Assembly: GCA_001768555.1 (NCBI GenBank)
Contig: MEOD01000021.1
Coordinates: 4,432-39,751, forward strand
Length of the DNA stretch: 35,320 bases
Direction: 5' to 3'
Source: Bacteroidetes bacterium GWF2_29_10
Lineage (GTDB): Bacteria; Bacteroidota; Bacteroidia; Bacteroidales; GWE2-29-8
Every line of letters starts with the position of its first letter. Positions within the stretch are counted from its first letter, which is position 1. Below are positions 3,614-16,428 of this stretch, piece after piece. A program made the translations under genes and the position numbers. The notes under the pieces were generated by a model that worked only from the letters and a program-made list of their open reading frames with translations, was not told where the DNA came from and did no database searches.

Positions 3614-4486
3614 TTAAAATTTAATAAGATGTGAATTATAGCCATCATAAAACTTTAATGCAGGAGAAGGCAGGTGATAGTAATTGATGAATTCTTTTAT
3701 CTTTGCTTCATTCTTTTGATTTGTGAATTTAATATGCCTTAAATCAATATCAAAACCCAAATAAAGCTCTCTATCTCCATTTCCTTTTCCATCAAGTTGG
3801 GTTGCACTTAAACCTATTGCAGGACATAACCATTTGGGAAATGTTTTTGAATTAGTTAGCCCTTGAATGTTAAATGAAAGCCAGTAAGTATGCCTTTCAT
3901 AGTCATCCATAAAAGATTTGTCTTTGTTCCATTCAATTGTTTTAAAGTAAGATTTATTTACAAAATCATAACTCCACTTTAGGTTTATATTTTTTAATTT
4001 TGGATATTTATATTGAAGTACTGGATAAAATGCGCCAAGTATATTCGCGCTCATATCAGTTAATGAAAATCCCCACCATGGAGCCAACCCATCTTTTATC
4101 TCAACAATTGAAGACATTGTTATAGAGAATCCAGCCCCATACCATTTTGCTTTCTCTTCATTAAATCCAACCCACTCCATAAGTATAGAAAACGCCTGTG
4201 TTGTTACCTGAGAAGACCAAAAATGACCTGCTTTATCCAATCCTTTTGCATATGTAAGCTCGTGGGTATCGTCGAAATGGAATTTTCCCCCTCCATATCC
4301 TTTCCACCATGAATTGTTAAAGTATATAAATACGCCTGCTGTAGCTATTGGAACAGATGATGAAATTATAGCAAGTCTCGTATAATTAATTTTATTTTTT
4401 AAGGTATCGCTACCTGAGAAAGAAGAATAGCAAAACTTATTTGCTAAAACTAGTATTAATAATAAAATTACTTTTTTATAATTCAT
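3614..4486 (-). CDS. DUF2279/YfiM-like exported protein, copy 1
   Basis: This 290-residue protein starts with a signal peptide or anchor (KKVILLLILVLANKFCYS) and has a second hydrophobic stretch near 38-55. The core resembles DUF2279 (E. coli YfiM-like): GLDKAGH at 82-88, an acidic VEIKDG at 128-133, and SLTDMSAN at 141-148. It shares with the next gene the segment YWLSF near 200 and the C-terminal pattern YxLPxPAxKF, so the two are a tandem duplicated pair. It lies 33 bases downstream of that paralogue and 12 bases upstream of the HsdR-like gene, all on the minus strand. Function is unknown; the conserved Asp/His/Glu residues would suit a membrane-associated enzyme or a structural envelope protein, but nothing here decides it. 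Confidence 0.7.
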   Translation of the reverse strand: MNYKKVILLLILVLANKFCYSSFSGSDTLKNKINYTRLAIISSSVPIATAGVFIYFNNSWWKGYGGGKFHFDDTHELTYAKGLDKAGHFWSSQVTTQAFSILMEWVGFNEEKAKWYGAGFSITMSSIVEIKDGLAPWWGFSLTDMSANILGAFYPVLQYKYPKLKNINLKWSYDFVNKSYFKTIEWNKDKSFMDDYERHTYWLSFNIQGLTNSKTFPKWLCPAIGLSATQLDGKGNGDRELYLGFDIDLRHIKFTNQKNEAKIKEFINYYHLPSPALKFYDGYNSHLIKF

Positions 4487-4520: not shown

Positions 4521-5417
4521 TTAATGCATTAGAAACATTTTGTATTCTGTTTGTGAATTTTCTTTAAATTTAATTGCAGGTAAAGGAAGACGATAAGTGT
4601 TTAAAACATCAATAAAGTTACGTGTTTTTTTGTTCTTTGATTGAATATGATTTAGGTTAATATCTAGTCCTACAATAAATTCTCTCCTTTTTAAATCATT
4701 ATTTCCCTTAGAAACACCATCTGCTCCATATCCTAATGCTAAATTAATGTATTTTGGCCAAAATTGATTGTACTTTTCGCCTAATATATTCTTAACATCA
4801 AATGATAGCCAATAAATATGTCCATCATAATCATCAGTGATAGATAATTTCTTTTTCTGCCAAGGATTAAATTCGCTAGGGTAATAGCTCCATTTAAACT
4901 GAATGTTTTTTGAAATATTATTACGTGTTTGTAAGTATGCAAATCCTATTCCTGCAATGTTTGACAACAAATCATCAGGAGAAAACTGGTAGGATGAAAA
5001 GCCGTCTCCCATCTCAACGGAAACAGCATAAAGGAGAGGAATTCCTACGCTATACTTTATTGCATCTTTTTCCTTATAGTCAGCCCATTTCATTACCGAG
5101 TAAAATGTTTTGAAATAGAGATATGAAATATAGGCATGCCCTAATTTGTCTATACCTTTAGAATAATTATTAAAATAACCTTCCCAATGGCAATGAAATG
5201 GATGGTAATCATCTTCCCACCACCATTTATACTGTGTGTAAAAAATAGCAGCAGTATTAGCAACTATTCCAACTTTTACAGCATTCCTTTTGTTGAAAGA
5301 AGATTTTGTGTTCTTTGTTGCATTTACAGAATCAAGCTCTTGAGATAGCAATTTAAAGTCTGATTGAATAAAGAAAATAATTAATGTGAGGATGATTAAA
5401 AACTTAGAATAATTCAT
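4521..5417 (-). CDS. DUF2279/YfiM-like exported protein, copy 2
   Basis: This 298-residue protein is a paralogue of the gene that follows it. It has an N-terminal hydrophobic segment (FLIILTLIIFFIQS) and a second near 50-62. The shared core is GIDKLGH (88-94), SVEMGDGF (133-140), and SPDDLLSN (146-153), then DDYDGHIYWLSF and a C-terminal YRLPLPAIKF. The residues that align between the copies are Asp90/Asp84, His94/His88, Glu135/Glu129, Asp149/Asp144 and Asn153/Asn148, which suggests they matter to function. It also has a Trp/His-rich stretch (WWWEDDYHPFHCHWEG, 65-80) that is only partly kept in copy 1. It starts 2 bases after the stop of the upstream DUF1207-like gene, so the two are very probably translated from one message. 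Confidence 0.7.
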   Translation of the reverse strand: MNYSKFLIILTLIIFFIQSDFKLLSQELDSVNATKNTKSSFNKRNAVKVGIVANTAAIFYTQYKWWWEDDYHPFHCHWEGYFNNYSKGIDKLGHAYISYLYFKTFYSVMKWADYKEKDAIKYSVGIPLLYAVSVEMGDGFSSYQFSPDDLLSNIAGIGFAYLQTRNNISKNIQFKWSYYPSEFNPWQKKKLSITDDYDGHIYWLSFDVKNILGEKYNQFWPKYINLALGYGADGVSKGNNDLKRREFIVGLDINLNHIQSKNKKTRNFIDVLNTYRLPLPAIKFKENSQTEYKMFLMH

Positions 5418-8257: not shown

Positions 8258-8923
8258 ATGGAAGAAAAAATAAAAACAACAAAAAGCAAATTGCAACCAG
8301 TTCCAGAACCTACAGTTCGGAGAATGCCTAATTATCTTACATTTTTGAAAGAACTACAAAAGAGTGGAGAACAATACATTTCTGCTCCTGTTATTGCAAA
8401 AATTCTCAATTTGGATCCAACGCAGGTTGTAAAAGATTTATCATATACAGGAATTACAGGAAAACCCAAAGTTGGTTATGTGGTTGAAGATTTACTAAAT
8501 TTGCTTGAGGATTTCCTTGGTTATAATAGGCAACATGAAGCATTTTTAGTTGGAGCAGGTTTTTTAGGAGGAGCACTTATTCAATATCAGGGCTTTCGTG
8601 AAGCAGGATTAAAAATTGTGGCAGCATTTGATGTTGATAAAAAGAAAATAGGAACAGAAATAGCTGGAGTTTCAATATTTGATTTGAAAAATTTCCGCAA
8701 TTTAGCTAGTCGTATTCACATATCAATAGGAATAATAACTACGCCTGCATCAGAGGCACAATCTGTTGCAGATATAATGGTAGTTTGCGGGATAAAAGCA
8801 ATATGGAATTTTGCACCAGTATCAATTTGGGTTCCAGAGCATATTATTATTCAGGACACGCATATATATTCAAATCTAGCTGTTATAATTAATAAACTAG
8901 GGCAAACAAACAATGATAAATAA
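8258..8923 (+). CDS. rex: Redox-sensing transcriptional repressor Rex
   Basis: This 221-residue protein has the Rex layout. A winged-helix DNA-binding domain covers about residues 17-90 (PTVRRMPNYLTFLKELQKSG, SAPVIAKILNLDPTQVVKDL, TGKPKVGYVVEDL). A Rossmann NAD(H)-binding domain starts at FLVGAGFLGGAL (about 97-108), where most Rex proteins have GAGNLGRAL, and an Asp ends the second strand (AAFDVDKKKIG). The C-terminal HIIIQDTHIYSNLAVI helix is the swapped dimer element. Rex binds DNA when NADH/NAD+ is low and lets go when NADH rises. It is first in the operon, 35 bases ahead of hydC, with a palindrome over its own promoter, so it likely controls itself and the hydrogenase. A longer N-terminal tail (about 15 polar residues) precedes the helix domain. 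Confidence 0.93.
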   Translation: MEEKIKTTKSKLQPVPEPTVRRMPNYLTFLKELQKSGEQYISAPVIAKILNLDPTQVVKDLSYTGITGKPKVGYVVEDLLNLLEDFLGYNRQHEAFLVGAGFLGGALIQYQGFREAGLKIVAAFDVDKKKIGTEIAGVSIFDLKNFRNLASRIHISIGIITTPASEAQSVADIMVVCGIKAIWNFAPVSIWVPEHIIIQDTHIYSNLAVIINKLGQTNNDK

Positions 8924-8958: not shown

Positions 8959-9462
8959 ATGAAAACAGAACCAAACAATAATCTCAGACAATTTCAGCAG
9001 GTGCTAGAAATAATAGAGAAAAACAATCACGATAAAACACATTTAATAACTATTCTACAGCAGGTGCAGGATGCGTATCGTTATTTGCCTCCACAAGTGT
9101 TGACATATATTGCAACAATGTTAAAAATGCCTGTTGCAGAGGTATATGGAGTTGCCACATTCTATGCACATTTTTCGCTTGAAGCAAAAGGAAAGTATGT
9201 CATTAAAGTTTGTGATGGGACTGCTTGCCATGTTAAAGGTTCCTCAAAACTATTAGATACATTGTATAGCAAGTTAAAGCTAAGTGAAAAAAAGCACACT
9301 ACAGATGATATGATGTTTACACTAGAGGCGGTTAGCTGTTTAGGAGCTTGTGGGCTTGCGCCAGTTATGGTTGTCAATGATAAAATTTACGGTGAGGTTA
9401 ATGCAAAACGTTGTGGAGAGATTGTTGACAACATAATAAATGCAGAACTAGGAGAAGGCTAA
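8959..9462 (+). CDS. hydC: HydC, NuoE-like [2Fe-2S] subunit of bifurcating [FeFe]-hydrogenase
   Basis: This 167-residue protein belongs to the NuoE/24-kDa family. A helical N-terminal part (about 10-70, with LITILQQVQDAYRYLPP and VAEVYGVATFYAHF) is followed by a thioredoxin-like domain with the four cluster ligands in the pattern C-x4-C (VCDGTACHVKG) and C-x3-C (VSCLGACGLAPVM). In HydABC complexes it carries electrons next to the flavin subunit. It lies 35 bases after rex and 34 bases before hydB, in the same order as other hydCBA operons. A NuoE of complex I is unlikely because the only partners here are a fused NuoF-like subunit and a hydrogenase. Confidence 0.92.
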   Translation: MKTEPNNNLRQFQQVLEIIEKNNHDKTHLITILQQVQDAYRYLPPQVLTYIATMLKMPVAEVYGVATFYAHFSLEAKGKYVIKVCDGTACHVKGSSKLLDTLYSKLKLSEKKHTTDDMMFTLEAVSCLGACGLAPVMVVNDKIYGEVNAKRCGEIVDNIINAELGEG

Positions 9463-9496: not shown

Positions 9497-11404
9497 ATGA
9501 AAACAATAACAAAAGCCACCTTAGAATTAATAAGGGAGCATTACAATAAATCTATAAAATCCGTACATAAACGAATTATTGTATGTGCAGGAACGGGTTG
9601 CATAGCAAACGGTTCTATGTTAGTTTACGAAGCTTTAGAAAAAGCGATAAAAGCAACAGGGATGGAGCTTTTTGTCGAATTAGAATTAGATGTTCATGAT
9701 GATAAAAAAAAGGTACATTTAAATGGGAGTGGTTGTCAAGGATTTTGCGCACAAGGTCCACTAGTTAATATTCTTCCAGAAGAAACGATGTATGTAAAAG
9801 TCAAACCCGAAGATGCATTAGAAATTATAGAACGTTCCATTTTAAAAGATGAAGTAATAGAACGCTTGTTATATGTAAATCCAGTAACAGGAGAAAGAAG
9901 TAGAGGACAGTTAGATATTCCTTTTTATAAACTTCAAAATCGTTTAGTTTTAGGGGAATGTGGACATGTTGATCCTGAAAATATTCGAGAATACATTGCT
10001 CATAATGGATACTTTGCAGCAGAGAAAGTTTTTAATCATATGACAGATGTAGATGTTTGTGACACATTAGTTGATTCAGGCTTACGAGGTCGAGGAGGAG
10101 GAGGATTTTCTACTGGTAAAAAATGGCATCTTACACGAGTAGAAAAATCAGACAAGAAGTATGTTATTTGTAATGGAGACGAAGGTGATCCTGGAGCCTT
10201 TATGGATCGGAGTCTTATGGAGGGTAATCCACATCGAGTTATAGAAGGAATAATGATTGCTGCACGTGCTATTAATGCAAATGAAGGTTATGTTTATGTT
10301 CGGCTTGAGTACCCATTAGCAGTAAAACGAATGCGTAAAGCAATAGAAGATGCAATGGATGCAGGCATATTAGGTGAAAATATTTTTGGAAGTGGGAAAA
10401 GTATGCATATCAGTGTTATGGAAGGAGCTGGAGCGTTTGTTTGCGGAGAAGAAACAGCCTTAATGGCTTCAATAGAAGGTAAAAGAGGTATGCCAATGCC
10501 CAAACCTCCATTTCCTGCTCAAAAAGGGTTATTTGGAAAGCCAACAGTTATTAACAACGTTGAAACTTTAGCCGCTGTTCCTTTGATTATTCGAAATGGT
10601 GCATCATGGTTTAATCAATACGGTACATCAACATCAAAAGGGACTAAAACATTTGCTCTAACAGGACATGTAGCAAACACAGGATTAATAGAAGTTCCTT
10701 TTGGAACAACACTTCGTGAAATAGTTTACAATATTGGAGGAGGGGTTACGGATAATGATGGAAAAGTTACAGGAGATGGATTTAAAGCAGTTCAAATTGG
10801 CGGTCCTTCAGGAGGTTGTTTAACAGAAACGGATATTGATTTGCCTCTTGATTATGATAATCTTATTGCAAAGGGCGCTATGGTTGGTTCTGGAGGTCTT
10901 GTTGTAATGAATACCCAAACATGTATGGTTCAGATTGCGAGATTTTTTATGAATTTTACACAGAATGAAAGTTGCGGAAAATGTGTTCCTTGCCGAGAAG
11001 GTACAAAGCAAATGTTATCTTTACTTGATGAAATTATAGAAGGAAATGGAACAATAGAAACTATAGAATTACTACAGGAAGTAGGTAAGTGTGTTAAAAA
11101 AGCATCTCTTTGCGGTTTAGGAAAGACTGCTCCAAGCCCAGTTCTTTCTACAATTGAAAAATTTAATGATGAATATTTGCAACATGTATTAAAAAAACGA
11201 TGTGCAACTAATAATTGCAAATCATTACGTAATGTAACAATAGATATAGAAAAGTGTATAGGTTGTACCTCTTGTGCACGCAAATGTCCAGTTGGAGCTA
11301 TAAGTGGAGAAAAGAAACAGCCCCATGTGATTAATTCTGACTTATGTACAAAATGTGGTGTGTGTAATAGTGTGTGCAAATTTAATGCAATATTAGGTTT
11401 TTAA
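9497..11404 (+). CDS. hydB: HydB, NuoF-like flavin subunit of bifurcating [FeFe]-hydrogenase
   Basis: This 635-residue protein has four parts. An N-terminal thioredoxin-like [2Fe-2S] domain shows CAGTGC and GSGCQGFCAQGP (about 31-95). The FMN/NADH-binding core shows GLRGRGGGGFSTGKKW (near 195-210), CNGDEGDPGAFMDRSLMEG, and GAGAFVCGEETALMASIEG. The N3-type [4Fe-4S] site is SCGKCVPCREG near 492 with the late Cys in SLCGLG. A C-terminal 2x[4Fe-4S] ferredoxin holds CIGCTSCARKCP and CTKCGVCNSVC. This domain set is that of HydB of Thermotoga-type complexes, which exchanges electrons with NAD(H) and ferredoxin at a single flavin. It follows hydC by 34 bases and precedes hydA by 17. Confidence 0.94.
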   Translation: MKTITKATLELIREHYNKSIKSVHKRIIVCAGTGCIANGSMLVYEALEKAIKATGMELFVELELDVHDDKKKVHLNGSGCQGFCAQGPLVNILPEETMYVKVKPEDALEIIERSILKDEVIERLLYVNPVTGERSRGQLDIPFYKLQNRLVLGECGHVDPENIREYIAHNGYFAAEKVFNHMTDVDVCDTLVDSGLRGRGGGGFSTGKKWHLTRVEKSDKKYVICNGDEGDPGAFMDRSLMEGNPHRVIEGIMIAARAINANEGYVYVRLEYPLAVKRMRKAIEDAMDAGILGENIFGSGKSMHISVMEGAGAFVCGEETALMASIEGKRGMPMPKPPFPAQKGLFGKPTVINNVETLAAVPLIIRNGASWFNQYGTSTSKGTKTFALTGHVANTGLIEVPFGTTLREIVYNIGGGVTDNDGKVTGDGFKAVQIGGPSGGCLTETDIDLPLDYDNLIAKGAMVGSGGLVVMNTQTCMVQIARFFMNFTQNESCGKCVPCREGTKQMLSLLDEIIEGNGTIETIELLQEVGKCVKKASLCGLGKTAPSPVLSTIEKFNDEYLQHVLKKRCATNNCKSLRNVTIDIEKCIGCTSCARKCPVGAISGEKKQPHVINSDLCTKCGVCNSVCKFNAILGF

Positions 11405-11421
11405 CAAAAAAAATTATTATT

Positions 11422-13470
11422 ATGGAAACAAAAGGAAATGTAAATATTGACGGGATTATAGTCCCTATAGATAATGAGAAAAATTTACTTGAACTTATTC
11501 GTAAAGCAGACATTGAACTACCAACATTCTGTTATCATTCCCATTTAAGTATTTATGGAGCATGCAGACTTTGTGTATCTGACATTGAAGGAATGGGAAT
11601 TCAGGCAACCTGTTCTATTCAACCTAGAGATGGGATGATTGTACGTACTAATACTTCAGAAGTAAGACAAATAAGAAAGATAAATCTTGAATTAATTTTA
11701 GCAAATCACAAAATAGATTGCCCTAGTTGTTCTCGTTCAAGCAATTGTAAATTACAAGATTTAGCTCGTCGTCTTGGAGTAACAAAAGTTAGGTTTAAAC
11801 AAACAAATAGTCATCTACCTATAGATGATTGTTCAAATAGTATTATTCATGACCCTAATAAGTGTATTTTATGTGGAGATTGTGTAAGGGCGTGTAAGGA
11901 AATTCAATCAGTTGGAGCAATTGATTTTGTAAATAGAGGCTCTCAAACAATTGTTGGTCCTGCATTTAACAAAAGCCTTCGTGATGTGGAATGTGTTTAT
12001 TGTGGACAATGTGTATCTGTTTGCCCAGTAGGAGCATTAGTTCCGAAACCAGAAACAGAAGAAGTTTGGGATGCAATTCATAATCCAGAAAAATATGTAG
12101 TAGCCCAAATAGCACCTGCAGTTAGAGTAGCTCTTGGAGAAAGTTTTGGAATAGAAGCCGGAGTAATTACTACTGGTCAAATAGTAACATCTTTAAAGCG
12201 TATGGGATTTAACAAGGTGTATGATACCTCTTTTACAGCAGATTTAACAGTTTTAGAAGAAGCATCGGAATTTATATCTCGCAAACTTAAAGGCGAACTT
12301 TTGCCTCAATTTACTTCATGTTGTCCTGGCTGGGTAAAATTTGCAGAACAATATTACCCTGAATTGTTACCAAATTTATCTACATGTAAATCGCCTCAAC
12401 AAATGTTTGGAAGTGTTGCTCGTGAAATATTACCAAAAATGTTAGGAATAAAACCTGAAAATTTGGTTATTGTATCAATAATGCCTTGCACTGCGAAGAA
12501 ATTTGAAGCTAAACGAGAAGAATTTATTCATAATGGCCTTGCAGATGTTGACCATGTTCTTTCAACAGAAGGTTTAGCTCGTATGATTCAAGAAACAGGA
12601 ATTCAATTTAACAAGTTAAAACCTGAATCTTTCGATTTACCTTTAGGATTTAAAACTGGTGCAGGGGTTATTTTTGGTAATACAGGAGGGGTTAGTGAAG
12701 CTGTACTTCGTTATGCTTATGAGAAAATTACAGGAGAGACTCTCATAGATACAGACATAAAGATTGTTAGAGGAATGGAAGGAATCAGAGATGTTAATAT
12801 AAAATTGGGGGATTTGAATATAAAATTGGCTATTGTTCATACGTTAAGTAATGCAAGAAAATTATGTGACAAAATAGTTGCAGGAGAAGCAAATTATGAT
12901 CTTATTGAGGTAATGGCTTGTCCTGGAGGTTGTATAGCGGGTGGAGGCCAACCTGTTAGTTTTGATACTGACTTTAGAATGAAAAGAATGCAAGGCTTAT
13001 ATAATACAGACAAGCAGTTAGAGCTTCATAAATCACAGGATAATCCATACATTAAAGAATTATATAAAACAACTTTAGGAGAAATTGGCAGTCCAAAAGC
13101 TCATGAACTTTTACACACTCATTATCATGGAAGAAAAAGAATAACTGATCAAGTAATAAACATACGCAATACAGTTCATCCAAAGATTGAAATTTATGTT
13201 TGTTTGGGTACTAATTGCTATATTAGAGGAGCTCATGAATTGATGAAACAACTTACTCAATATGTTACAGAAAACAAATTGGAAGATATAATTGGTTTTG
13301 AAGGTCAAGAAGATATGGTAGATGTAAAAGGCACATTTTGTTTTGAACGTTGTGAAAAAGGACCTGTACTTAGAGTTAATGAGCATATTCTTGAACATGC
13401 CACATTTGAAAAAGCCAAAGCTCTTTTGTATAAAGAAATACAAAGAATAGGTTTACTTGTTAATAAATAG
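11422..13470 (+). CDS. hydA: HydA, catalytic [FeFe]-hydrogenase subunit (group A3-like, with C-terminal [2Fe-2S] domain)
   Basis: This 682-residue protein contains a complete active site. The N-terminus has a NuoG-like [2Fe-2S] domain (FCYHSHLSIYGACRLC), a His-Cys cluster (HKIDCPSCSRSSNC), and two [4Fe-4S] clusters (CILCGDCVRACK, CVYCGQCVSVCP). The H-cluster motifs are TSCCPGW (298-304), MPCTAKK (354-360) and MACPGGC (498-504); ligands are Cys301, Cys356, Cys500 and Cys504, and Cys300 is the proton-relay Cys. A C-terminal thioredoxin-like [2Fe-2S] domain follows (VCLGTNC and FCFERCEKGP), as in Thermotoga HydA. The enzyme reversibly makes H2 with electrons confurcated from NADH and reduced ferredoxin. 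Maturation needs HydE, HydF and HydG, which are not in this window. An 84-base gap separates it from hydS, the largest gap in the operon. Confidence 0.95.
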   Translation: METKGNVNIDGIIVPIDNEKNLLELIRKADIELPTFCYHSHLSIYGACRLCVSDIEGMGIQATCSIQPRDGMIVRTNTSEVRQIRKINLELILANHKIDCPSCSRSSNCKLQDLARRLGVTKVRFKQTNSHLPIDDCSNSIIHDPNKCILCGDCVRACKEIQSVGAIDFVNRGSQTIVGPAFNKSLRDVECVYCGQCVSVCPVGALVPKPETEEVWDAIHNPEKYVVAQIAPAVRVALGESFGIEAGVITTGQIVTSLKRMGFNKVYDTSFTADLTVLEEASEFISRKLKGELLPQFTSCCPGWVKFAEQYYPELLPNLSTCKSPQQMFGSVAREILPKMLGIKPENLVIVSIMPCTAKKFEAKREEFIHNGLADVDHVLSTEGLARMIQETGIQFNKLKPESFDLPLGFKTGAGVIFGNTGGVSEAVLRYAYEKITGETLIDTDIKIVRGMEGIRDVNIKLGDLNIKLAIVHTLSNARKLCDKIVAGEANYDLIEVMACPGGCIAGGGQPVSFDTDFRMKRMQGLYNTDKQLELHKSQDNPYIKELYKTTLGEIGSPKAHELLHTHYHGRKRITDQVINIRNTVHPKIEIYVCLGTNCYIRGAHELMKQLTQYVTENKLEDIIGFEGQEDMVDVKGTFCFERCEKGPVLRVNEHILEHATFEKAKALLYKEIQRIGLLVNK

Positions 13471-13554: not shown

Positions 13555-15279
13555 ATGAAATCTTCTGAAAGACCCAAAGAAAAACTACCAGTTGTTTATA
13601 CATCAAAAGCAAAGTGTAGGGATTGTTATCGTTGTGTTAGAGTTTGCCCTGTTCATGCTATAAAGATGAAAGATGGTCAAGCTCAAGTTATTACAGAACG
13701 TTGTATTACTTGTGGTACATGTATTACGGTTTGTCCTCAACAAGCAAAATCTTATCGCACAGATTATATAAAAGTTTTACAAATGATAGAGGATGGGGAG
13801 ACTTTGGCTTTGAGCCTAGCTCCATCCTTTGTGTCAAATTATAATGATTGGGAGCAAGAACGTTTGCCTTCAGCATTACGCATGTTAGGTTTTAAATATG
13901 TAGGAGAAACGGCTGTTGGAGCATTGCATTCGGCATTAGCTACTTCTAAATACATTAAAGAAAATTCAAATAAATCTCATATATGCAGTGCTTGTCCAGC
14001 CATTGTTAGTTTTATATTGCATGAATTTCCAGAACTAACATCAAACATAGTTCCAATAGTGTCTCCAATGATGGCTCACGCTCGAATATTAAAATCTCGA
14101 AACTCAGATGTAAAAGTTGTATTTGCAGGTCCATGTGTTGCAAAAAAAGAAGAGGCTCAATGGGGAAATAACGAACTATTTATTGATGCTGTACTAACAT
14201 TTGAGGAATTGGATGAGTTATTTCGTCTTAAAAACATACATTTTGAAGAATGCGAAAATAGTTCTTTTGATGAACATGCGTCCCCATATGCAAGAATGTT
14301 TCCACTTGAAGGTGGTTTGCTTCGTACGGCAGAAATGGAAACAAATATGCTTGATAAAAATGTAATAGCAATTAGTGGTGCCGATGAAATAAAAGAGGCA
14401 CTAATAAATATTACAGAAATGAAATCAGAAACAATAATATTAGAGCCTCTTTTTTGCAAAAATGGATGCATAAATGGTCCATTTGTAAAACAACAAACAA
14501 ATAACTTCTCAAAAAGAAGAAAAATACTAAATTACGCAGGGAATTGCTCTGGACTATTAAATCAGACAATCCATCTGTATGAAAAAATGGAAACACAGTG
14601 TTACCCGATAATTAATACTCCAAAACATACTTATACCGAAGAGGAAATAAGAAATGTGCTTATTAAAACAGGGAAACACCAAATATCAGATGAATTAAAT
14701 TGTACATCTTGTGGTTATAACACCTGTAGAGAAAAAGCTATAGCTGTATTAGATAATATAGCGGAAATTGACATGTGTATGCCTTACATGAGACAATTAG
14801 CTGAACAAAAAATAGACACTATAATTACTCACGACCCAAATGGTATTGTGTTATTGAGTAATAAACTGGAGATAATACACATGAATACAGCCTTCAAAAA
14901 AATGTTTTCATGTTCCGATACAATGATTGGGAAAAAGATAAACTATCTAATAGATCCCGATCTTTTTGAAAAACTTATAACAGGGAAAGACAACGTACTT
15001 CGTCAAGCAGTTCAATATTCTAGTTATAATCTGATTTGCCATTTAATTGCATATACATTACCTGAAGAAAAAAATATAGTAGGAATTTTTGTTGACATAA
15101 CTGATAGCAAGTCAAACAAAGACAAGCTCAATGAAGTTAAGTCAGAAACGATTTTAAAAGCCCAAGAATTGATTGAACATCAAATTAGTATGGCACAAGA
15201 ATTGGCCAAGGTTCTTGGAGATAACACAGCAAGAGGTGAAATTTTAATGAAAAATTTAATTGACTCTATAAAAAAATAA
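13555..15279 (+). CDS. hydS: HydS, putative sensory [FeFe]-hydrogenase with Fe-S and PAS domains
   Basis: This 574-residue protein begins with two [4Fe-4S] clusters (CRDCYRCVRVCP, CITCGTCITVCP). The H-domain keeps all four H-cluster Cys: Cys147 (CSACP, 144-148), Cys194 (GPCVAKK) and Cys301/Cys305 (FCKNGC). Three residues that tune catalysis differ from HydA: Ala146 replaces the proton-relay Cys, Gly192 replaces the Met of MPC, and Leu299 replaces the Met of MAC. A [4Fe-4S] domain with spacing C-x2-C-x4-C-x16-C (Cys383-Cys408) and a PAS domain (about 420-525) follow, then a helical C-terminus. This is the architecture of group C sensory hydrogenases, thought to sense H2 and signal through the PAS region. 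The phosphatase gene starts 3 bases later, which makes it the likely output partner. Confidence 0.9.
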   Translation: MKSSERPKEKLPVVYTSKAKCRDCYRCVRVCPVHAIKMKDGQAQVITERCITCGTCITVCPQQAKSYRTDYIKVLQMIEDGETLALSLAPSFVSNYNDWEQERLPSALRMLGFKYVGETAVGALHSALATSKYIKENSNKSHICSACPAIVSFILHEFPELTSNIVPIVSPMMAHARILKSRNSDVKVVFAGPCVAKKEEAQWGNNELFIDAVLTFEELDELFRLKNIHFEECENSSFDEHASPYARMFPLEGGLLRTAEMETNMLDKNVIAISGADEIKEALINITEMKSETIILEPLFCKNGCINGPFVKQQTNNFSKRRKILNYAGNCSGLLNQTIHLYEKMETQCYPIINTPKHTYTEEEIRNVLIKTGKHQISDELNCTSCGYNTCREKAIAVLDNIAEIDMCMPYMRQLAEQKIDTIITHDPNGIVLLSNKLEIIHMNTAFKKMFSCSDTMIGKKINYLIDPDLFEKLITGKDNVLRQAVQYSSYNLICHLIAYTLPEEKNIVGIFVDITDSKSNKDKLNEVKSETILKAQELIEHQISMAQELAKVLGDNTARGEILMKNLIDSIKK

Positions 15280-15282
15280 CAA

Positions 15283-16428
15283 ATGTATATACACACGGAT
15301 ATATTTGCAGTGCAATCGTCAAAAAAAATAGATCAACCATGTGGAGATGCATATGGAACATTTAGAGATGAAGTTGCAACAAATATAGTTTTGGCTGACG
15401 GTTTAGGTTCTGGAATAAAAGCACATATTGCGGCGAATATGTGTGTTTCCCGTATTATAGGACTAATAAGAATGGGAATGTCGTTAAGAGATGTATTTAA
15501 GGCGGTATCATCAACTATGGATAAAGCTTGGGGAACAGGAGCTCCATTTTCGGTATTTACAATTGCACGAATTCTTAACAATGGTCAAACAACAATACTT
15601 ATTTACGAAATGCCTCCCCCTCTACTTGTTAATAAAAACCATGCTCAACTTTTACCCACTCGTATTTATACACAAGGAAAAGCTATAGTTAGAGAATCCA
15701 ATTGTATTATTGATAAAGGAGAAGGTTTGCTTTTACTTTCAGATGGAATTACTCAATCTGGTATTGGAAAATATTTTACAAGCGGGTGGGATGTTGATGG
15801 AGTAAAAAGTTTTCTATTGTCTTACCTCCCAAGAGAACGAGTAGATGGTTCTACAATTACACGATTAGTACATGATCAAGCAAAATCATATTGGCCAGAA
15901 GGAAAAGGAGATGATTGTTCTGTTATTTTAGCCCTTAATCGTCGTGGGGTTATTGTAAATTTATTGAGTGGACCTCCTTTTATGAAATCTGATGATGTTG
16001 ATTGGGTTAATCATTTTATGCAAACAGAAGGGATTCATATTATTAGTGGAGGATCAACAGCTATGATTACGGCCAAAATTAATAACAAACAGCTAGAGGT
16101 AAATAAGTCTGAAAATCATATTACACCTCCATCGTATAAGTTAAATGGCATAGAATTAGTGACAGAAGGTATGGTTACTCTAAATCAAGTATTTCACTTA
16201 CTTGATGAAGACCCTGATAAGTATCCTCAAGATTCTCCTGCATCCAATCTTGCATATTTTTTAAAAGTTGCAGACAGAGTAAATATTTGGTTAGGTAAAG
16301 CAGAAAATCTAAATGAAGGAAGTATTGAATTTAAACAACAAGGTTTGTTAAATCGAGGTAAAATAATAAAAAAAATAATAGAAAAACTCAGAGAACAAGG
16401 TAAACTTGTAGTGGTAAATGAAAAATAA
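15283..16428 (+). CDS. SpoIIE/PP2C-type serine/threonine phosphatase, HydS partner
   Basis: The N-terminal part of this 381-residue protein (about 1-215) is a PP2C/SpoIIE domain with the metal-binding acids in order: GD at 21-22, ADGLGSG with Asp39, LLSDG with Asp154, and GDDCS with Asp210/Asp211. Enzymes of this type dephosphorylate Ser/Thr on anti-anti-sigma factors or other proteins in the cytoplasm. Residues 215-381 form an extra region that I cannot assign; it holds an apparent GGSTAMITAK segment and a helical Lys-rich end. No sensory domain is fused to it, so input probably comes from HydS, whose stop codon is 3 bases upstream. No kinase, STAS protein or sigma factor is in the window, so the substrate is unknown. 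It ends the operon; only weak AT-only hairpins follow. Confidence 0.85.
   Translation: MYIHTDIFAVQSSKKIDQPCGDAYGTFRDEVATNIVLADGLGSGIKAHIAANMCVSRIIGLIRMGMSLRDVFKAVSSTMDKAWGTGAPFSVFTIARILNNGQTTILIYEMPPPLLVNKNHAQLLPTRIYTQGKAIVRESNCIIDKGEGLLLLSDGITQSGIGKYFTSGWDVDGVKSFLLSYLPRERVDGSTITRLVHDQAKSYWPEGKGDDCSVILALNRRGVIVNLLSGPPFMKSDDVDWVNHFMQTEGIHIISGGSTAMITAKINNKQLEVNKSENHITPPSYKLNGIELVTEGMVTLNQVFHLLDEDPDKYPQDSPASNLAYFLKVADRVNIWLGKAENLNEGSIEFKQQGLLNRGKIIKKIIEKLREQGKLVVVNEK

Follow-up and report, generated by a model that had tools for sequence, protein, structure and literature searches.

Directly behind the gene for HydS, a sensory-type [FeFe]-hydrogenase, the genome of Bacteroidetes bacterium GWF2_29_10 carries a gene for a SpoIIE/PP2C phosphatase, and together they close a hydrogenase block whose genes run on the + strand in the order Rex, HydC, HydB, HydA, HydS, phosphatase. 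The block lies in the stretch of 35,320 nucleotides (nt) of contig MEOD01000021.1 analysed here, called the window below, which comes from an assembly of 2.8 Mb in 110 contigs that is 92% complete. We consider it likely that HydS is a cytoplasmic sensor of H2 or redox state, of the phosphatase-linked type known as group C3, and that the phosphatase encoded directly behind it is its output. The parts of this module, their conservation and their co-inheritance are read directly from the genomes compared. H2 sensing by [FeFe] enzymes in anaerobes is an unsettled subject, since a whole class has been named sensory without a demonstrated output, and H2 control bears on the fermentation products of gut and rumen communities. 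What is new here is a set of conserved coupling parts together with evidence for their swapping, and these are of more interest than the Cys that HydS lacks at the relay position of the catalytic enzymes. The features of the pair, all on the + strand, are as follows.

13555-15279, +: HydS, sensory group C [FeFe]-hydrogenase, 574 amino acids (open reading frame, Pfam, residues, H-domain tree)
13615-13734, +: two [4Fe-4S] ferredoxin-type Cys sets of HydS, C21-C31 and C50-C60 (Fer4, two matches)
13807-14481, +: H-domain of HydS, residues 85-309 (PF02906, Fe_hyd_lg_C, 1.4e-47)
14695-14784, +: C-terminal [4Fe-4S] domain of HydS, with C383, C386, C391 and C408 nearby (PF04060, 2.1e-8)
14836-15105, +: PAS domain of HydS, residues 428-517 (PAS_9, 2.6e-5; AlphaFold2 fold)
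15112-15276, +: helical tail at the C-terminus of HydS, proposed to couple it to the phosphatase (tail profile; AlphaFold2 helix of low confidence)
15283-15945, +: catalytic domain of the PP2C (SpoIIE/RsbU-type) phosphatase, residues 1-221 (PF07228, 1e-8; AlphaFold2)
15946-16425, +: unclassified C-terminal domain of the phosphatase, residues 222-381, about 160 amino acids (AlphaFold2 fold)

The pairing of the two genes recurs far beyond this genome. Loci were gathered from relatives, from 80 named genomes and from phylum samples; in the sample behind the counts and trees given here, relatives of the query are over-represented, with the phylum samples as its less biased part. Among 102 candidate HydS, 54 are followed directly by a PP2C gene, 33 carry a fused histidine kinase and four a fused SpoIIE domain. 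The spacing in the 54 pairs, which come from many phyla, ranges from -59 to +35 nt, often with a 4-nt overlap; in the window three bases separate the HydS stop from the phosphatase start (TAA-CAA-ATG). The complete order Rex-HydC-HydB-HydA-HydS-PP2C is found again in Omnitrophota, Firestonebacteria, Bacillota, Cloacimonadota and one deltaproteobacterial genome, and the pair stands beside a shorter hydrogenase in Carboxylicivirga and Butyricimonas (both cultured Bacteroidota), in spirochaetes and in Clostridia. In a quick tree of H-domains, with support from the Shimodaira-Hasegawa-like approximate likelihood ratio test (SH-aLRT) only, the HydS of the window falls in a fully supported clade of 16 rows, all PP2C-linked or fragmentary, that spans Riflebacteria, Omnitrophota, Planctomycetota, Thermodesulfobacteriota, Firestonebacteria and Bacillota; the kinase-fused HydS occupy a separate branch. 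The phosphatases of the same 13 loci likewise form one clade (support 100/100), and the distances of HydS and PP2C are correlated in a Mantel test (r 0.75 when the hybrid pairs described below are left aside; 0 of 2000 permutations as high). Chance adjacency is ruled out by the 54 conserved pairs and the matched trees, and on these comparisons the linkage of the two genes in the window is not fortuitous. A search of viral contigs with the phosphatase gave a single match, L125:534-3468, on a contig listed as viral (IMG/VR) that holds a HydA fragment, HydS and PP2C and is probably host DNA.

HydS itself keeps all the ligands of the H-cluster (C147, C194, C301 and C305) and has A146, G192 and L299 where group A enzymes have the relay Cys and the conserved Met residues. 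All eight Cys of the Fer4 sets are invariant in the 16-row alignment, and those of the C-terminal [4Fe-4S] domain are invariant over the PP2C-, kinase- and SpoIIE-linked forms. The PAS_9 score of 24.9 bits is slightly under the Pfam cut-off of 27; the AlphaFold2 model has a confident PAS-like fold, with a predicted local distance difference test score (pLDDT) of about 90-96 over most of the domain. No HisKA or HATPase domain was found in HydS or its neighbours, as a histidine-kinase-linked (C1) enzyme would have. The initial annotation, made from the sequence alone, had described the pair at 13555-16428, the residues Ala146/Cys147, Gly192/Cys194 and Leu299/Cys301/Cys305, the extra Fe-S and PAS domains and the three bases before a SpoIIE-type phosphatase, and all of this held, the residues exactly so when checked one by one. 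It had also named two outcomes that would speak against its reading, a Cys at the relay position and a HydS placed among group A enzymes with no linked phosphatase; the residue is Ala, HydS is well removed from group A, and other genomes keep the phosphatase beside it. Equivalents of Gly192 and Leu299 occur in 33/33 kinase-fused HydS and are therefore features of group C, not marks of the PP2C-linked subgroup. Loss of the relay Cys was not accepted as proof of a sensor, because 7 of 35 other PP2C-linked HydS keep that Cys and because the HydS of Thermotoga maritima, which matches it in this Ala and in the Gly, is still catalytically active (PMC10055695).

Three other parts do mark the PP2C-linked form. 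A profile of the C-terminal tail matches 54/54 PP2C-linked and 0/33 kinase-fused HydS; trained without the clade of the window, it still finds 13/13 members of that clade and 0/33 kinase-fused forms, and over 1120 proteins its remaining matches are only pieces of HydS. Upstream of the pair, a thioredoxin-like [2Fe-2S] domain lies within 600 nt in 44/52 PP2C-linked loci (35/43 outside the training set) as against 0/33 kinase-fused loci. In the window this domain forms the C-terminus of HydA:

13180-13428, +: thioredoxin-like [2Fe-2S] domain of HydA, residues 587-669, with C594, C599, C640 and C644 (PF01257, 7.4e-9)

It corresponds to a small ferredoxin that other loci encode as a separate gene ahead of HydS-PP2C, and the HydA directly upstream is mostly 660-693 amino acids long in PP2C operons as against 538-600 in kinase operons. 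The third part is the C-terminal domain of the phosphatase. The phosphatase gene (15283-16428, +, 381 amino acids) encodes acidic residues at Asp22, Asp39-Gly40, Asp154-Gly155 and Asp210-Asp211 that are invariant in 54/54 sequences, and its AlphaFold2 model (pLDDT 93.3) has RsbU, SpoIIE and RsbX as best Foldseek matches; with its metal-binding Asp residues and PP2C fold it is predicted to be an active PP2C/PPM phosphatase. The domain that follows has a confident alpha/beta fold (pLDDT 93) and no convincing sequence match in Pfam, NCBIfam or the Protein Data Bank (PDB), and the Foldseek search with the whole phosphatase, dominated by PP2C matches, gave it no identity. It occurs in 11 of 297 Bacteroidota genomes, in one copy each, and every one of the 11 is part of a PP2C with a HydS-type tail encoded upstream. 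Five further copies were examined in named genomes, four of them HydS-linked; the other, in Pelotomaculum (L228:741-2244), belongs to a phosphatase of the same family preceded only by a [2Fe-2S] thioredoxin-like ferredoxin, without HydS.

Several Bacteroidota depart from the usual arrangement in ways that bear on how the parts fit together. In four genomes HydS and a SpoIIE/RsbU-type phosphatase form a single chain of 933-1353 amino acids (L036:6304-10365, L037:1568-5590, L038:292-4077 and L040:5036-7837), with several PAS domains in the one that was scanned, L036. Some Bacteroidales have a second HydS-PP2C pair that is divergent beside a HydCBA-HydS-kinase operon (L028, L029, L033, L094 and L109). 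The hybrid pairs (L028:348-3413, L029:3126-6187, L033:3274-6347, L094:101-3165, L109:76-3116 and L044:1643-4606) have an H-domain from inside the histidine-kinase branch, a C3-type tail and a phosphatase from inside the Bacteroidota C3 group. A single grouping of all PP2C-linked H-domains was rejected by the approximately unbiased (AU) test with p 0.01, for a hybrid grouping that had been seen first and that has a long branch. Most hybrids lack the equivalent of C301, the first Cys of the L3 motif (YCEGC, YNEGC, YHSGC), and may therefore have an altered H-cluster or none. Three genomes, all from a single Bacteroidota genus, contain a cassette that has no H-domain beside it at all and consists of a [2Fe-2S] protein, a stand-alone PAS-tail protein of 168 amino acids and a PP2C with the C-terminal domain (L232:5512-7455, L233:5751-7694 and L234:4521-6470). 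Because the cassette is found both on a kinase-type H-domain and without one, we infer that PAS, tail and phosphatase make up a separable output and that the H-domain is an exchangeable input. A wider version of this idea, which we put forward tentatively, is that of a portable redox cassette composed of the thioredoxin-like [2Fe-2S] domain, PAS with its coupling helix and a PP2C with its dedicated domain, to which various H-domains or none could be joined and in which the C-terminal cluster of HydA would report the state of the catalytic enzyme to the sensor and its phosphatase.

In the mechanism that we propose, H2, or the redox state set by it, would alter the H-cluster of HydS and the Fe-S clusters attached to it, with an input relay that probably includes the thioredoxin-like [2Fe-2S] domain, which in the window forms the C-terminus of HydA. 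H2 is proposed as the signal because the H-cluster ligands are retained and because there is precedent, H2 sensing being putative for HydS as for the C3 class as a whole. The change would be passed on to the PAS domain and the C-terminal helix of HydS, and the helix would dock on the separate PP2C and switch it in trans, much as PAS and coiled-coil linkers do in cis for RsbP and RsbU-type phosphatases; since the chain is cut between helix and phosphatase, action of the tail in trans is the most likely course by this analogy. The phosphatase would then dephosphorylate Ser/Thr residues of a target protein and so tune, in expression or in activity, the bifurcating hydrogenase next to it and fermentation genes. 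Besides H2 as the signal, the scheme predicts a physical contact of the two proteins, a sense of switching and a target, and the comparison yields parts that can be tested: a tail expected to bind the phosphatase, an unclassified phosphatase domain and a [2Fe-2S] domain that possibly links the catalytic enzyme to the sensor.

Several observations weigh against this scheme. When the TAA at 15277-15279 was read through and the PAS-tail and phosphatase modelled as one chain (AlphaFold2, from a mostly unpaired alignment), a long helix with a pLDDT of about 51-66 over the tail and no interface was obtained; no confident position of the tail emerged. H2 does not reduce the C-terminal cluster in the related sensor of group D, and the proposed Fe-S relay may for that reason be mistaken; the cassettes that lack an H-domain show that H2 sensing is not needed for the phosphatase module to exist. 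The maturase HydF was not found in the 92%-complete assembly. That no H-cluster is made was set aside as an explanation, since HydG is present (520 bits, locus L159) and a same-family genome has HydF; for the same reasons the missing HydF is probably an assembly gap. As for a target, no STAS or kinase gene was found by Pfam among the proteins of the operon, no Hanks-type Ser/Thr kinase was detected in the genome at E 0.001, and its only SpoIIE-HATPase-STAS set lies elsewhere and is self-contained, with its own phosphatase.

The last of these points bears on a variant of the scheme, doubtful in our view, in which, by partner switching, a STAS protein is the substrate both of an unlinked kinase of RsbW type and of the phosphatase that counters it. 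The fold of the phosphatase is nearest RsbU, SpoIIE and RsbX, and STAS and HATPase_c_2 genes do occur in the genome, as the initial annotation had proposed to check; the single complete set has a phosphatase of its own, and no gene of this sort turned up next to the PP2C-linked HydS when RsbW, RsbT and STAS sequences served as queries. An RsbU/RsbP-type partner-switching target within the operon was thus discarded, there being none there and none near the other pairs. About as uncertain, but a serious rival, is the proposal that the module senses redox (ferredoxin or NADH) rather than H2 itself through the thioredoxin-like [2Fe-2S] domain, the H-domain feeding or modulating it. The frequent presence of that domain upstream, its retention where the H-domain is missing, the Rex gene within the same block and those hybrids that lack an H-cluster ligand all fit such a sensor; the four H-cluster ligands are kept in the clade of the window and in C3 generally, which is hard to explain if H2 is irrelevant. 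We regard it as improbable that HydS works as a catalytic hydrogenase of low activity, or lets electrons into the HydABC complex, and that the phosphatase gene is a passenger. The position of hydS within a catalytic operon, the relay Cys of some other C3 enzymes and the activity of the T. maritima form speak for such a role, but a plain catalyst would have no use for a PAS domain and a partner-specific tail, and the phosphatase is kept beside HydS across the 54 loci and many phyla, also where no HydABC adjoins. The preferred reading, HydS signalling through PP2C and not a histidine kinase, had been advanced from the window alone; it is well supported by phylogeny, conserved adjacency, the partner-specific tail and the HydS-SpoIIE fusions.

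The rest of the hydrogenase block is made up as follows.

8258-8923, +: Rex, NADH-responsive repressor, first in the block (NCBIfam NF003994, 286 bits, above cut-off)
8959-9462, +: HydC, thioredoxin-like [2Fe-2S] subunit (PF01257, 8.8e-52)
9497-11404, +: HydB, FMN/NADH subunit (PF01512, PF10589)
11422-13470, +: HydA, catalytic group A [FeFe]-hydrogenase (NF040763, 773 bits, above cut-off; motifs)

HydA has the canonical motifs TSCCPGW, MPC and ACPGGC, so the contrast between catalytic and sensory enzyme lies within the operon itself. A scan for Rex operators near HydS gave 8 matches where 5.4 are expected by chance, none of them upstream of Rex or HydS. A protein near the block bears a Por_Secre_tail (type IX secretion tail), which makes Bacteroidota the most likely origin, and two predicted DUF2279 lipoproteins, apparently a tandem pair, lie side by side on the minus strand of the window (3614-4486 and 4521-5417). 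Elsewhere in this genome, contig 35 has a second HydCBA operon (L136:3801-12093), similar to one at L145:4084-12615; in both, a histidine kinase of about 600 amino acids with a hydrophobic N-terminus and no detected H-domain occupies the slot of the HydS-kinase fusion of relatives and is still trailed by a response regulator, a receiver-kinase and Rex. The self-contained set mentioned above, of SpoIIE phosphatase, RsbW-like ATPase and STAS protein, lies on contig 12 (L137:5494-7559) and is followed by proteins of 549 and 1015 amino acids.

Systems of this general kind are known. HydDB divides the group C [FeFe]-hydrogenases, all putative sensors, into C1 with histidine kinases, C2 with chemotaxis proteins and C3 with phosphatases (PMC5037454), and the window shares with C3 the group C H-domain, the extra Fe-S and PAS domains and the adjacent Ser/Thr phosphatase. 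By domains, neighbour and phylogeny, in trees without HydDB references, the HydS of the window would be of this type; one paper places forms with a histidine kinase domain in C3 too (PMC11406978), so the label does not part the outputs cleanly. The statement in the initial annotation that similar sets exist in Clostridia is borne out by the literature. A group C enzyme of Ruminococcus albus that has PAS and a putative Ser/Thr phosphatase subunit has been proposed as an H2 sensor (PMC6776011), and in the hfsABCD operon of Thermoanaerobacterium HydS (hfsB) is followed by a serine phosphatase (hfsC); there, strains deleted for hfsA or hfsB make ethanol in higher yield and express adhE more strongly, and the high yield depends on wild-type hfsC and hfsD (PMC5707799, PMC11837493). 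These systems resemble the window in having HydS and a serine phosphatase in a hydrogenase operon, and the genetic evidence for regulation is theirs; their pair stands beside a ferredoxin-dependent hydrogenase (HfsD/HydA2), that of the window behind Rex-HydC-HydB-HydA, with the [2Fe-2S] domain fused to HydA. The further statement that the output is undescribed in Bacteroidota stands in part: we found no paper that describes it, in a search that mostly left out subscription papers, but since C3 was already defined and the pair recurs in other Bacteroidota, the setting is undescribed in this phylum rather than new in kind.

The closest comparisons for single parts come from T. maritima, from Rsb phosphatases and from the kinase fusions. 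The HydS of T. maritima is like that of the window in its PAS domain, its Ala at the relay position and its Gly at the position of M353, and differs in having Ser, not Leu, at that of M497 (PMC10055695). In the structure of T. maritima HydABC the C-terminal cluster of HydA lies >30 A from all others, too far for electron exchange, and its use is not known (PMC9499530); a signalling role for it is worth testing, and the scheme offers this isolated cluster of a solved bifurcating hydrogenase a candidate one. RsbP combines PAS, coiled coil and PPM in one chain, and such linkers have been exchanged between phosphatases and kinases (PMC3183031, PMC12143880). The proposed system resembles RsbP and RsbU in placing a PP2C under the control of a PAS and/or coiled-coil linker; it differs in that PAS-helix and phosphatase are separate proteins, in its H-domain sensor and in the extra C-terminal domain of the phosphatase. 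The HydS-histidine kinase fusions of Bacteroidota and Ignavibacteriota, finally, have the same class of H-domain in the same slot after HydA, but in them HisKA/HATPase replaces PAS and tail, response regulators lie downstream and no [2Fe-2S] domain lies upstream.

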